Of a stretch of DNA of 60,449 nt, positions 28,762-33,534 are shown piece by piece. This DNA comes from Aestuariibaculum sediminum. Its GTDB lineage: Bacteria; Bacteroidota; Bacteroidia; Flavobacteriales; Flavobacteriaceae. Made by a program: the position numbers and the translations under genes. Positions within the stretch are counted from its first letter, which is position 1. Every line of letters begins with the position of its first letter. The notes below the pieces were generated by a model, which saw only the letters and a list, made by a program, of their open reading frames with translations, was not told the origin of the DNA and ran no database searches. The DNA is taken from the NCBI RefSeq assembly GCF_014596945.1, contig NZ_JACVXB010000010.1, positions 1 to 60,449 on the forward strand. Direction: 5' to 3'.

Positions 28762-29802
28762 ATGAAAAACACAAATCAGGTTTTCGATAATGTATTAGAT
28801 TTAGTGGGTAATACGCCCCTTATCAAGCTAAATAGAATTGTCTCGAATTTTAAAGGGGATTTCTACGCAAAAGTAGAATCTTTTAATCCCGGGCACTCTT
28901 CTAAGGATAGAACAGCTTTATACATTATTGAACAAGCAGAAAAGAAAGGTATTTTAAAACCAGGCGATACTATTATTGAAACAACCTCGGGTAATACCGG
29001 GTTCAGTATAGCCATGGTAAGTATCATTAAAGGGTATGAGTGCATTTTAGCTGTAAGTTCTAAATCTTCACCAGATAAAATAGACATGTTAAGAACAATG
29101 GGGGCTAAAGTTTATGTGTGCCCAGCTCATGTTCCTGCCGACGACCCCAGATCATACTACGAGGTTGCCAAGCGTATTCATAAAGAAAAACCAGGCTCTA
29201 TTTATATTAATCAGTATTTTAATGAATTAAATATTGATGCACACTACGATTCTACGGGGCCAGAAATTTGGAAGCAAACCGAAGGTAAGATAACCCACCT
29301 TGTGGCATGTAGCGGTACCGGAGGAACCATTTCGGGAACGGCTCGATATTTAAAAGAACAAAATCCTAATATAAAAGTAATTGGCGTAGATGCTTTTGGG
29401 TCGGTTATAAAAAAATATCATGAAACTCGTGAGTTCGATGAGAAGGAAATTTACCCATATCGTATTGAAGGGTTGGGAAAAAATTTAATCCCAGGAGCTA
29501 CCGATTTCGATATAATTGATGATTTTGTTAAAGTTACTGACGAAGAAAGTGCACATACCGCAAGGGAACTAGCAAGAACCGAAGGATTGTTTTCTGGTTA
29601 TACATCGGGCGCAGCAATGCAAGCAATAAAACAGCTGGATGAAAGAGGAGAGTTTAAGAAAGGAGATAAAATAGTTGTAATTTTTCCAGATCACGGTTCG
29701 CGATATATGAGTAAAGTGTACAGTGATAAATGGATGCAGGATCAAGGGTTTTTTGATAGTAAAAACGAAGTTGCTGTAGAAAATATTCAGTACGTAAAAT
29801 AA
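28762..29802 (+). CDS. Cysteine synthase-family PLP enzyme, candidate cysteate synthase
   Basis: A 346-aa fold-type II PLP enzyme. The Schiff-base lysine is K48 in GHSSKDR, the substrate loop is TSGNTG (75-80), and the phosphate cradle is SGTGGTISG (from S184). Family-wide this chemistry joins a serine derivative with a sulfur nucleophile to give cysteine, cystathionine or cysteate. The next gene is a cysteate fatty-acyltransferase-like enzyme, so I favour cysteate synthase (O-phosphoserine plus sulfite) over cysteine synthase or cystathionine beta-synthase. That choice rests on context. No CBS or regulatory domain is attached. A terminator follows. Confidence 0.75.
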
Positions 29803-29821
29803 GTGCCGAAATAACAGATAT

Positions 29822-29874
29822 AGAGAGATGATGATTGTTTAATAAACAAGAAATCATCTCTTTCTTTTTTTTGT
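29822..29874 (+). terminator. Terminator after the cysteine synthase-like gene
   Basis: AGAGATGAT pairs with ATCATCTCT, extended by partly paired AT bases towards the loop, and is followed by a long T-rich run. It separates the gene from the next plus-strand gene, which must then have its own promoter (a TAATTTTG box lies at 29919-29926). Confidence 0.75.
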
Positions 29875-29918
29875 AAATAATTGAACGTTAAAAATTATGT
29901 ACAAAGAATTTAAATATT

Positions 29919-29926
29919 TAATTTTG
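29919..29926 (+). promoter_or_regulatory. Candidate -7 box for the alpha-oxoamine synthase gene
   Basis: TAATTTTG fits TAnnTTTG and is placed after the terminator and 132 bp before the ATG at 30059. No TTG was found at the ideal -33 spacing, so support is partial. The leader between them has short complementary blocks but no decisive structure. Confidence 0.4.
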
Positions 29927-30058
29927 CAGCAGCTAACTAAGAACGATAAAGCTTTCTTTTAACAGGCTATAATACAGGTTAAGCCTTGTGTTTCCTGATA
30001 AAAGCCATTTCGGGTTAATAGTTAAAGCTTAAATTAATAGCAATAAGATTTATTATAA

Positions 30059-31318
30059 ATGAAGGATTTATTTGAAAAAATTTATAAAGACAAAGGTCCA
30101 TTAGGTAAATGGGCGTCTCAAGCTGAGGGCTATTTTGTTTTTCCAAAATTAGAAGGTCAAATTTCTAATAGAATGAAATTTCAAGGGAAGGAAGTAATAA
30201 CCTGGAGTATCAACGATTATTTAGGGTTAGCAAACCATCCTGAAATTCGTAAAGTAGATGGAGAGGCTGGTGTAGAGTACGGTTCAGCTTATCCAATGGG
30301 AGCCAGAATGATGTCTGGCCATACAGATCTTCACGAGTTGCTTCAAAAGGAGTTAGCAGAATTTGTAAATAAAGAAGCGGCTTATTTATTAAACTTTGGA
30401 TATCAAGGAATGGTGTCTACAATAGATGCTTTAGTTTCTAAAGACGATATTATTGTTTACGATGTAGATGCACATGCCTGTATTATTGACGGAGTTCGTT
30501 TACACATGGGTAAACGCTTTACTTATAAGCATAATGACGTAGAAAGTTTAGAAAAAAATCTTGAGCGTGCCACTAAAATGGCAGAACAAACCGGAGGAGG
30601 TATTTTAGTAATCTCTGAAGGTGTTTTTGGTATGAGAGGTGAGCAAGGTAAATTAAAAGAAATTGCTGCGCTTAAAAAGAAATATAATTTTAGATTTTTA
30701 GTTGATGACGCTCACGGTTTTGGAACCTTGGGGAAAACAGGAGCAGGAGCAGGTGAAGAGCAAGGTGTGCAAGACGACATCGATGTGTATTTTGCTACTT
30801 TTGCTAAATCTATGGCCGGTACCGGAGCTTTTATTGCTGCCGACCAAGAAATTATAGATTATCTAAAGTATAATCTTCGTTCTCAAATGTTTGCGAAGTC
30901 ATTACAAATGCAATTAGTTGTAGGAGCCAGAAAGCGTTTGGAAATGCTTAAAACAATGCCAGAGTTAAAAGATAAACTTTGGGAAAATGTAAGAGCATTA
31001 CAATCAGGATTAAAAGATAGAGGTTTTGATATAGGAACAACGCAAAGTTGTGTAACTCCGGTGTATTTAAAGGGAAGTATTCCTGAGGCTATGGCTTTAG
31101 TGAAAGATTTAAGAGAGAATTTCGGTATTTTCTGTTCAATAGTTGTTTACCCAGTAATTCCAAAAGGATTAATATTATTGAGATTAATTCCTACGGCAAC
31201 ACATACTTTAGAAGATGTTAGAATTACTCTGGATGCTTTTGATGGTATTAGAGAACGATTAGAAAACGGTACTTACAAACGTTTATCAGCTTCGGTTGTA
31301 GCTGCAATGGGTGAGTAA
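30059..31318 (+). CDS. Alpha-oxoamine synthase, probable cysteate-C-fatty acyltransferase (or serine palmitoyltransferase)
   Basis: A 419-aa fold-type I PLP enzyme of the KBL/SPT/BioF group. H139 (DVDAHACIIDG) should stack on PLP, D217 and H219 lie in LVDDAHGFGTLG, and K250 in FATFAKSMAGTGAF is the Schiff-base lysine. The enzyme condenses an amino acid with a fatty acyl thioester with loss of CO2. In Flavobacterium johnsoniae an enzyme of this type makes the capnine base of sulfonolipids and is needed for efficient gliding. The neighbouring cysteine synthase-like gene supports cysteate as substrate here. Serine palmitoyltransferase remains possible; BioF is unlikely because no biotin genes are nearby. 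Confidence 0.82.
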   Translation: MKDLFEKIYKDKGPLGKWASQAEGYFVFPKLEGQISNRMKFQGKEVITWSINDYLGLANHPEIRKVDGEAGVEYGSAYPMGARMMSGHTDLHELLQKELAEFVNKEAAYLLNFGYQGMVSTIDALVSKDDIIVYDVDAHACIIDGVRLHMGKRFTYKHNDVESLEKNLERATKMAEQTGGGILVISEGVFGMRGEQGKLKEIAALKKKYNFRFLVDDAHGFGTLGKTGAGAGEEQGVQDDIDVYFATFAKSMAGTGAFIAADQEIIDYLKYNLRSQMFAKSLQMQLVVGARKRLEMLKTMPELKDKLWENVRALQSGLKDRGFDIGTTQSCVTPVYLKGSIPEAMALVKDLRENFGIFCSIVVYPVIPKGLILLRLIPTATHTLEDVRITLDAFDGIRERLENGTYKRLSASVVAAMGE

Positions 31319-31337
31319 TAGTACTATTCAATTTATA

Positions 31338-31374
31338 TAAAAAAACACCGCTAAAAATAGCGGTGTTTTTTTAT
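31338..31374. terminator. Bidirectional terminator
   Basis: AAAAAAACACCGCTA pairs with TAGCGGTGTTTTTTT around a 4-base loop. It lies between the convergent alpha-oxoamine synthase and GNAT-type genes and can serve both. Confidence 0.92.
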
Positions 31375-31387
31375 ATAGATATGTTAT

Positions 31388-32509
31388 TTATATGTTTTTT
31401 CTGTAAGTTCGTCTTTTGGCGTAGACGGTAGCATCAAAATGTTTCCAGATTTGTCTAATAGCCACATTGTCGTCTAACTCAGGAGTTCTTACACAAGTTT
31501 CAACACCTTTTTCTTTAAATGTATCGTAAAATTCATTAAAAATAAGGGCATGAACACCTTTATTTTGATAATCTGGATGAACACCTATTAAATAAAAAAT
31601 AGCGCTTTTACTGTTCTTTTTAGCTCTTAAAATATGCGAAAACCCAAATGGAAATAATTTTCCTTTTGCTTTTTGTAAGGCTTCGGCAAACGATGGTAAA
31701 ACAACTGCAAAGGCTATTAAATTATCGTCCTTATCTACTACGAATTTAATGTACTCCGGATTAACAAATCCTATGAATTTCTTTTTAAAATATTCTTTTT
31801 GAATGTCGGTAACCGCAACGAAAGACGATAGTTTAGCATAGGTATCGTTAAATAAATCAAACATGCGATCAACATAAGGCATAACCTGAGATGTTTTCGT
31901 GAAGTTTAATGCTTTTAACTGATAACGTCTGGTAATGATGTCGTTGAGTTTTACGAATACTTTAGGATCAACATTTTTGAATGAAAAACTACTTTCAGAA
32001 TATGATTTTTCAACATTATAGTTCAAAGCTTCATAATGCTTAATGTAGTAAGGGTGATTGTACCAGGTAACCATAGTTGCACGGGTTTCGAAGCCATCGT
32101 ACATAACGCCAACTTTGTCTAAGTTTGAGAACCCCACAGGGCCTTCGGCGTACTCGAGACCATGAGATCGTCCTATGTCTTCTACTTTGTTAAGTAATGT
32201 TTTTGAAACTTCAAGGTCATCAATAAAATCGAACCATCCAAAACGCATTTTTTTAACGTTTTGTCCTTTAACTTCTAACCAGTTTATCATGGCAGCAACA
32301 CGTCCTACAACTTCATTTTTATTATTATAGGCAAGGAAAAGAGTGGCTTCGGCATCATGAAAAACAGGGTTTTCATTGGGGTCAAATGTTTTCATTTCCT
32401 CTGTGATAATAGGGGGAACCCAATATTTCGAATCTTTATAAAGTTTGAATGGAAACTTTACAAAGTTTTTTAAATCTTTCTTTGTTTTAACTTCTTTTAA
32501 TGTAATCAT
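31388..32509 (-). CDS. Large GNAT-type acyltransferase, candidate sulfonolipid/ceramide N-acyltransferase
   Basis: A 373-aa protein. The N-terminal block FVKFPFKLYKDSKYWVPPI (from about residue 16) and the following NPVFHDAEATLFLAY..VGRVAAMIN define a long GNAT-related family; a second GNAT-like core with IGVHPDYQNKGVHALIF (about 318-334) carries the acyl-CoA pyrophosphate-binding pattern. As I recall, this family includes bacterial ceramide synthase-type N-acyltransferases. Sitting next to a capnine-base synthase, it could attach the second fatty acid. This is inference; the annotation GNAT-family acyltransferase is safe. Confidence 0.7.
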   Translation of the reverse strand: MITLKEVKTKKDLKNFVKFPFKLYKDSKYWVPPIITEEMKTFDPNENPVFHDAEATLFLAYNNKNEVVGRVAAMINWLEVKGQNVKKMRFGWFDFIDDLEVSKTLLNKVEDIGRSHGLEYAEGPVGFSNLDKVGVMYDGFETRATMVTWYNHPYYIKHYEALNYNVEKSYSESSFSFKNVDPKVFVKLNDIITRRYQLKALNFTKTSQVMPYVDRMFDLFNDTYAKLSSFVAVTDIQKEYFKKKFIGFVNPEYIKFVVDKDDNLIAFAVVLPSFAEALQKAKGKLFPFGFSHILRAKKNSKSAIFYLIGVHPDYQNKGVHALIFNEFYDTFKEKGVETCVRTPELDDNVAIRQIWKHFDATVYAKRRTYRKNI

Positions 32510-32532: not shown

Positions 32533-33534
32533 TTAATTGAATTCTACGGATTCGCGTTTCTGTTTTGAGTTAATCAAATCGTTATTGTTCTTATTCTTAT
32601 TTCTTCGGGCCCGGCGCTTCCCTTCGTCTTTAGCAGAGGTGCCATTATCGATGTTTTCAATTTGATCTTTGTGAAAATCTAACCGGTAGGACATTCCGAA
32701 GTTAACACCAAAAACCGAAGGTGTATCTTTAGTGTTAAGTGTTACAGCGGAATCCAACTGAAAATTTTTGCTTAGTAAATATGCGCCTCCTAGTCTAAAT
32801 AAGTTGTCGGCATAGAAATCGCTTTTTATACCTTGTGTTTCTGCAAAAATAACCCATTTAGGGTTAAACGAATGTGTTAATGTTAAAATATATTGAAAGT
32901 CTGACTGGTCTGTTCCTATGCGATCTTTTATAAAGTTCATTATAAACACAAATCCACCTGCAAAATTATTTTGAGTAGCAATCATAACTTTAGGACTAAA
33001 ACCCTCAATACCTACAGCGGTAAATGGATTTTTTTTCGTGTCGTAATTAGCGCCTAAATAAACCGAAATAGCCGGAATTAAAGAATTCCATTTAAAACTA
33101 TGGTTGGCTTTCCAGCTGTATAAATTTGTTTTATTGCGCACTTCATTTTTATAGGGATCGTAGATTAAATATTTAGCACCAACGGATAAAAATTTAAAAT
33201 TTGCTCGTTCTTCATCTGAACTTATGGTAGAAATATATGTTTTGGTATCACTTTGGAAGGTGCCTTCAACATTTAATTCTAATTGCTCCCATAAAAGACC
33301 GTAACGCGCAGCAAAGTCTACACCATAACCTGAAATTTCATACTTAGGTGAAGGTGTGCGGTTTTCTTTAATATAATACGGGCCTGCTTCAAATTGTAAA
33401 ACATTTGTGCCGACTGAAAAAGCGCTTCGGGATGCTCCGGGTCGGTTTGAGTTAATTACGTCGGTGTATTGGGCAAAGCCTTTGGCGGCCATAAAACTAA
33501 GCGAAATAAACAAAGTGGTTTTAAATAGTTTCAT
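32533..33534 (-). CDS. Outer-membrane transporter-like beta-barrel protein
   Basis: A 333-aa protein with a signal peptide (about 1-21), repeated amphipathic beta strands with aromatic girdles, the opening motif INSNRPGASRSAFSVGTNVLQFE, and a charged disordered tail (KRRARRNKNKNNN). The opening resembles the MetA-pathway/phenol-degradation porin-like family that Flavobacteriia carry as transporter. It is 23 bp upstream of the GNAT-type gene on the same strand, so the two are co-transcribed. Ligand unknown. Confidence 0.72.
   Translation of the reverse strand: MKLFKTTLFISLSFMAAKGFAQYTDVINSNRPGASRSAFSVGTNVLQFEAGPYYIKENRTPSPKYEISGYGVDFAARYGLLWEQLELNVEGTFQSDTKTYISTISSDEERANFKFLSVGAKYLIYDPYKNEVRNKTNLYSWKANHSFKWNSLIPAISVYLGANYDTKKNPFTAVGIEGFSPKVMIATQNNFAGGFVFIMNFIKDRIGTDQSDFQYILTLTHSFNPKWVIFAETQGIKSDFYADNLFRLGGAYLLSKNFQLDSAVTLNTKDTPSVFGVNFGMSYRLDFHKDQIENIDNGTSAKDEGKRRARRNKNKNNNDLINSKQKRESVEFN

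Follow-up and report, generated by a model that had tools for sequence, protein, structure and literature searches.

PMC11211663 connects sulfonolipids with gliding, with the development of choanoflagellates and with inflammation of the host, and describes a four-step route to them, of which it reports the third step. The closest described systems for its beginning are CapA and CapB of Capnocytophaga ochracea, the cysteate fatty acyltransferase (CFAT) Fjoh_2419 and SulA of Alistipes finegoldii. As for N-acylation, the closest described proteins are Escherichia coli YghO and Caulobacter bCerS, whose gene in the work of other authors is presumably the one also designated CC_1154. Here, a locus containing capA, capB and a gene for a GNAT-type acyltransferase was analyzed at positions 28762–32509 of a 60,449-nucleotide stretch of the Aestuariibaculum sediminum genome (Flavobacteriaceae; contig NZ_JACVXB010000010.1), hereinafter the window. 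The GNAT-type protein is a strong candidate for the last (fourth) step of sulfonolipid synthesis, N-acylation; this predicted activity is probable. No paper naming a sulfonolipid N-acyltransferase was found among the matches listed in the open literature, and a mention in the Fjoh_2419 paper or in the primary CapABC paper is possible. A named candidate makes the fourth step directly testable.

The three genes and their protein families

The three open reading frames (ORFs) contain the motifs that an earlier, sequence-only reading of the window had attributed to them, namely, K48 and TSGNTG in the first, H139, D217 and K250 in the second and WVPPI in the third, all at the positions it gave. The first gene, capA (28762–29802, forward strand), encodes a fold-type II pyridoxal phosphate (PLP) enzyme of 346 aa. 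It belongs to the NCBIfam equivalog family NF053679 CysteaSynCapA (656.3 bits, cut-off 600) and also matches PF00291 in the Pfam database; the NCBIfam models of cystathionine beta-synthase and cysteine synthase remained below their own cut-offs on this protein. The second gene, capB (CFAT, sulA; 30059–31318, forward strand), encodes a cysteate fatty acyltransferase of the alpha-oxoamine synthase type (419 aa). According to the phmmer search against PDB, its nearest solved chain is 28eh, “Cysteate-C-fatty acyltransferase” (E = 2.7e-215), followed by 7u7h (E = 1.2e-171), which the match table names otherwise and which we take to be SulA. The NF047600 model does not recognize the 419-aa protein as a serine palmitoyltransferase (SPT), giving 292.4 bits versus a cut-off of 640.

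Passages of PMC9304779 name Asn53, His140 and the PLP-binding Lys251 as conserved in the superfamily and indicate that cysteate acyltransferases have Lys281 (SulA numbering) where bacterial SPT has Ala. Residues N52, H139 and K250 of the window's CapB fall at the places of the former three, and K280 occupies the position of Lys281. All 23 CapB rows carry Lys at this position, and all 10 SPT rows, that of E. coli among them, carry Ala. CapA and CapB are already published enzymes, and the proposal that the first two genes are cysteate synthase-like and cysteate acyltransferase-like is supported by the curated match, the structural matches and the diagnostic K280.

The third gene (31388–32509, reverse strand) encodes a protein of 373 aa, hereinafter the GNAT, a predicted capnine or 3-ketocapnine N-acyltransferase. 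All family matches of the three genes lie far beyond chance, the weakest being the modest match of the GNAT with PF00583 in Pfam (27.2 bits, cut-off 20.7); it has no NCBIfam match. BLASTP revealed whole-length similarity between the GNAT and E. coli YghO (25% identity, E = 1e-38), and the profile–profile comparison in hhalign gave a probability of 100 (E = 8.3e-44). Judged by these alignments, the protein is a member of the YghO/bCerS (bacterial ceramide synthase) N-acyltransferase family. Its AlphaFold2 model (mean pLDDT 90.1) has tandem GNATs at the top of the Foldseek list, and the protein is accordingly predicted to adopt a tandem GNAT fold.

Members of this family are found beside SPT. 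In nine Bacteroidota loci (L084, L109, L110, L113–L116, L118 and L119), a GNAT relative directly adjoins the SPT gene and a homologous epimerase-type gene is located near by (Pfam was run on one of the nine); one of the SPT-linked relatives shows 36.5% identity with E. coli YghO. The neighbours of YghO in E. coli are a class I/II aminotransferase, an acyl carrier protein, an NAD-dependent epimerase and an acyl-AMP ligase. In a passage of PMC9386255, yghO (ECD_02850) and Caulobacter CC_1154 appear side by side as genes for the acyl-CoA N-acyltransferase of dihydroceramide synthesis, the role of the E. coli product being worded with “might be”. One of the nine loci, L119 (G295:C2), comes from the window's own family and has the SPT–GNAT pair and the epimerase-type gene alongside CapB.

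No SPT above the NF047600 cut-off was detected in the genome containing the window, the best of four matches reaching 348 bits versus 640. The cut-off is strict, given that the SPT-linked enzyme of L119 itself scores 636.9 bits, and 348 bits is far lower. At the diagnostic position, the best-scoring paralogue carries Asn and another carries Ala; we take them to be similar to Kbl and BioF, respectively. A ceramide synthase proper would depend on an SPT of its own genome for the acceptor. Since no SPT over the cut-off was found and no sphingoid base is expected, the likely acceptor is capnine or 3-ketocapnine produced through CapB.

In the proposed pathway, CapA would convert O-phosphoserine and sulfite into cysteate, CapB would form 3-ketocapnine by condensing cysteate and a fatty acyl thioester, and a short-chain dehydrogenase/reductase (SDR) encoded elsewhere would reduce this product. 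The GNAT would attach the second fatty chain to the amino group of either capnine or 3-ketocapnine, which would yield N-acyl-capnine, a sulfobacin-type sulfonolipid. We infer this acceptor, and the order of N-acylation and reduction is likewise provisional: passages in the literature propose N-acylation before reduction for Caulobacter and report a 3-ketocapnine reductase for sulfonolipids. None of the SDR matches found in the genome falls on the window's contig, in agreement with the earlier statement that a gene for the reductase step is missing here. The reductase CapC was not identified among the 16 and 19 SDR-type matches of two genome searches, none of which exceeded the NF004825 cut-off. 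An SDR gene directly adjoins CapB at L070 and L071, in two genomes (G064 and G158) without any GNAT of the YghO/bCerS family, and this SDR is likely CapC.

Co-occurrence of the GNAT with CapB and residue 132

For the distribution of the GNAT, 149 genomes (148 genera) from the family to which the window belongs were analyzed. CapB was found in 147 of them and the GNAT in 139 (138 at ≥280 bits and one at 81 bits), and none of the 139 GNAT-bearing genomes was without CapB. The two genes are separated by at most 300 bases in 89 genomes, by at most 1 kb in 98 (all convergent) and by at most 6 kb in 109; in the remaining genomes the GNAT is located farther from CapB on the same contig (15) or on another contig (15). 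Both genomes of the family lacking CapB also lack the GNAT: around g34093 they keep an outer-membrane gene (30% identity) and DUF4834, with no capA, capB or GNAT.

In addition, 198 genomes of the phylum were examined, 74 of them with CapB at ≥370 bits, a threshold set by us, and 124 without. The constructed tree contained a separate branch of the GNAT family, clade III, with support of 100/100. At a threshold of ≥490 bits, also set by us (the next row scored 305), clade III was found in 22 of the 198 genomes, and all 22 contain CapB. Genome G002 has neither CapB nor a clade III GNAT, and its four sampled family members carry both. At L120 (G287:C1, 4695–8920), the genes of a clade III GNAT, an SDR, a CapA-like protein and CapB follow one another in one direction; a single transcript may cover the entire sulfonolipid pathway there.

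A residue that may relate to the substrate was found at position 132 of the GNAT, encoded by the codon at 32114–32116 (reverse strand; the last codon of the translated segment 32114–32143). In the first comparison, 47 of the 51 clade I rows of CapB genomes, the window being counted twice among the 51, and 6 of 8 clade III rows had a basic residue directly after a conserved acidic residue. Such a residue was found in 0 of 11 clade II rows, 0 of 2 SPT-adjacent clade I rows and 0 of 10 clade I rows from CapB-less genomes. A forecast for held-out rows was noted after these had been fetched and before they were aligned, the clade I and clade III test rows being kin of the first set. Among them, residue 132 was basic in 20 of 20 clade I rows, 18 of 20 clade III rows and 0 of 20 SPT-adjacent rows; the last figure includes L232, read in a wrong frame and left out of the overall count. 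Overall, 60 of 71 CapB-type members and 0 of 42 others are basic at this position. These counts are not independent because the tree offers only two to three independent contrasts; one sequence, L102 (G014), is missing from it, an overlapping ORF having been picked instead. Basic residue 132 is to be read as a lead and not as proof. CapB-less genomes at L100, L101 and L103–L108 and their kin (family f15 and others) have a clade I GNAT away from SPT in which residue 132 is not basic.

It is conceivable, and rather doubtful, that clades I and III were separately recruited as sulfonolipid N-acyltransferases and that basic residue 132 reads the sulfonate in both, as CapB Lys280 may. If true, the sulfonolipid pathway would have arisen from sphingolipid enzymes through adjustment of a single charged residue in each. 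This suggestion, including the candidate role of K132, was rated lower because of the exceptions in f3 and of three aligned members (G175, G191 and G069) from CapB genomes of family f22 holding only an SPT-adjacent member, none of which is basic at position 132.

Counter-evidence and alternative explanations

A number of observations weigh against assigning the GNAT to sulfonolipid N-acylation. The GNAT does not occur wherever CapB does: it was not found, also by profile search, in 8 of the family's 147 genomes with CapB, and three genomes of other families (G041, G064 and G158) carry CapB but no member of the YghO/bCerS family. In 5 of the 8 GNAT-less loci of the family (L062, L063, L065, L066 and L067), the outer-membrane gene stands directly behind capB. 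Restriction to CapB genomes holds in 139 of 139 cases in the family and 22 of 22 in clade III, and does not hold for 14 of the 124 CapB-less phylum genomes, which carry a close relative (≥260 bits with the window protein), 10 of these being placed in clade I by the tree. For clade III, the profile derives from 8 rows, each taken from a CapB genome, and 15 of the 22 genomes did not contribute to it. In family f22, 10 of 25 CapB genomes hold only the SPT-adjacent member, and therefore one enzyme may serve both pathways there, or another enzyme does this step. The CapA-like protein of L120 is below the CapA cut-off (373 versus 600 bits), and 11 of the 71 CapB-type rows are not basic at position 132. 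Adjacency, finally, carries little weight as evidence, the entire block being syntenic. The eight GNAT-less loci of the family, L061–L068, retain CapA and CapB and have lost the GNAT. No replacement N-acyltransferase was recognized beside capB in these 8 and 12 other loci, and one may have been missed, the library scan having covered two neighbours at L071 (a glyoxalase-like protein and an SDR protein).

Conservation of the block was assessed in a synteny control of 20 loci picked for a GNAT within 1 kb of CapB, where the GNAT's own 20 of 20 is given by construction. The outer-membrane gene, g34093 and g36470 were present in 20 loci each, DUF4834 in 19, and CapA and the S9 peptidase in 17 each. 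GNAT–CapB adjacency was accordingly dropped as main evidence, the neighbours being about as conserved as the GNAT. The sequence-only reading relied on the adjacency of the three genes, which loses its force as evidence, given that the whole block is conserved and the GNAT faces capA and capB across a putative terminator (see below).

This conserved block is also what would be expected if the GNAT N-acylated another amine, such as a precursor of an amino-acid lipid or a base obtained by salvage, and were associated with CapB through inherited synteny. The close relatives in 14 of 124 CapB-less genomes and the 8 CapB genomes without the GNAT point the same way. However, the 10 clade I rows from CapB-less genomes fall together with the SPT-adjacent L084 on the tree (support 97/94), apart from the group of the window, and all are non-basic at position 132. 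Together with the absence of a GNAT without CapB from the 149 family genomes, the 22 of 22 clade III genomes with CapB and the gene run at L120, this makes another amine an unlikely acceptor. The family shared with YghO and the clade I members adjoining SPT in G033 and G295 would fit a role as a conventional ceramide synthase with 3-ketosphinganine as its acceptor. Such a role appears highly improbable, as the best SPT match of the genome is 348 versus 640 bits, while the real SPT-linked enzyme of L119 falls short only to 636.9, and as the best own paralogue has Asn and another Ala at the diagnostic position.

The outer-membrane gene itself provides a further explanation. This Phenol_MetA_deg-type gene (32533–33534, reverse strand; PF13557, 102.5 bits) is co-directional with the GNAT gene and located 23 bp upstream of its start. 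Among 80 named loci it was found near the GNAT in 79, while CapB was present in the fetched flank of 55; in 7 of the 25 loci lacking CapB, less than 2.5 kb of sequence was available on the side where it would be expected. The GNAT might thus serve the outer-membrane protein in an envelope function unrelated to sulfonolipids. Against this, the outer-membrane gene survives without the GNAT in 5 of the 8 GNAT-less loci and is present in both CapB-less genomes of the family, which leaves little probability for such a function. Sulfonolipid N-acylation remains the probable role of the GNAT. The proposal of the sequence-only reading that the third gene N-acylates capnine gains real support from the YghO/bCerS family membership, from the lack of an SPT over the cut-off and from the constant presence of CapB with the GNAT in the family; the eight CapB genomes without it speak against the proposal.

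Locus layout and comparison with known systems

The GNAT gene is convergent with capB, and the 69-base gap between them carries a near-symmetric hairpin (31332–31379) of 20 pairs with runs of A and T. By its pattern, this hairpin is a putative two-way intrinsic terminator. Owing to the convergent orientation and the intervening hairpin, the GNAT is not expected to be part of the capA–capB transcript. The 256-base gap between capA and capB, read by eye, contains a repeat, AGAGATGAT...ATCATCTCT, followed by a T-rich run, and therefore capA and capB may be separate transcripts too. The promoter pattern search gave 6 matches versus 5.6 expected, that is, no signal.

GNAT relatives were found in many Flavobacterium species, and F. 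johnsoniae was not seen among these named relatives. Contigs of metagenome-assembled genomes titled Rhizobium (L165) and Bdellovibrio (L181) encode flavobacterial-type GNATs (62% and 61%, respectively) and are probably mislabelled or contaminated bins. Two E. coli “plasmid” records of 4.8 to 4.9 Mb (NZ_OL790696.1 and NZ_CP141089.1) are probably misfiled chromosomes.

Compared with the tandem GNATs of known structure (PDB 7q3a, 2wpw and 5kf1), the predicted model of the window's GNAT has a similar fold (Foldseek E about 4e-13 to 2e-12), whereas sequence identity is 10 to 14% and the acceptors differ. The GNAT is full-length homologous to E. coli YghO; Caulobacter CC_1154 is tied to YghO through PMC9386255 and not by direct comparison with the GNAT. 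Unlike the SPT-adjacent members of the bCerS/YghO family, the GNAT neighbours CapB, resides in a genome without an SPT over the cut-off and has a basic residue 132. As for CapA and CapB, the window encodes the same two enzymes, with the same diagnostic lysine, as those represented by CapA and CapB of C. ochracea, Fjoh_2419 and SulA of A. finegoldii. In C. ochracea, CapA and CapB have consecutive accessions according to a passage of PMC12927429, and in the window capA and capB are neighbouring genes. No essential difference from these systems was seen, and with respect to CapA and CapB the window is a new locus of known enzymes.

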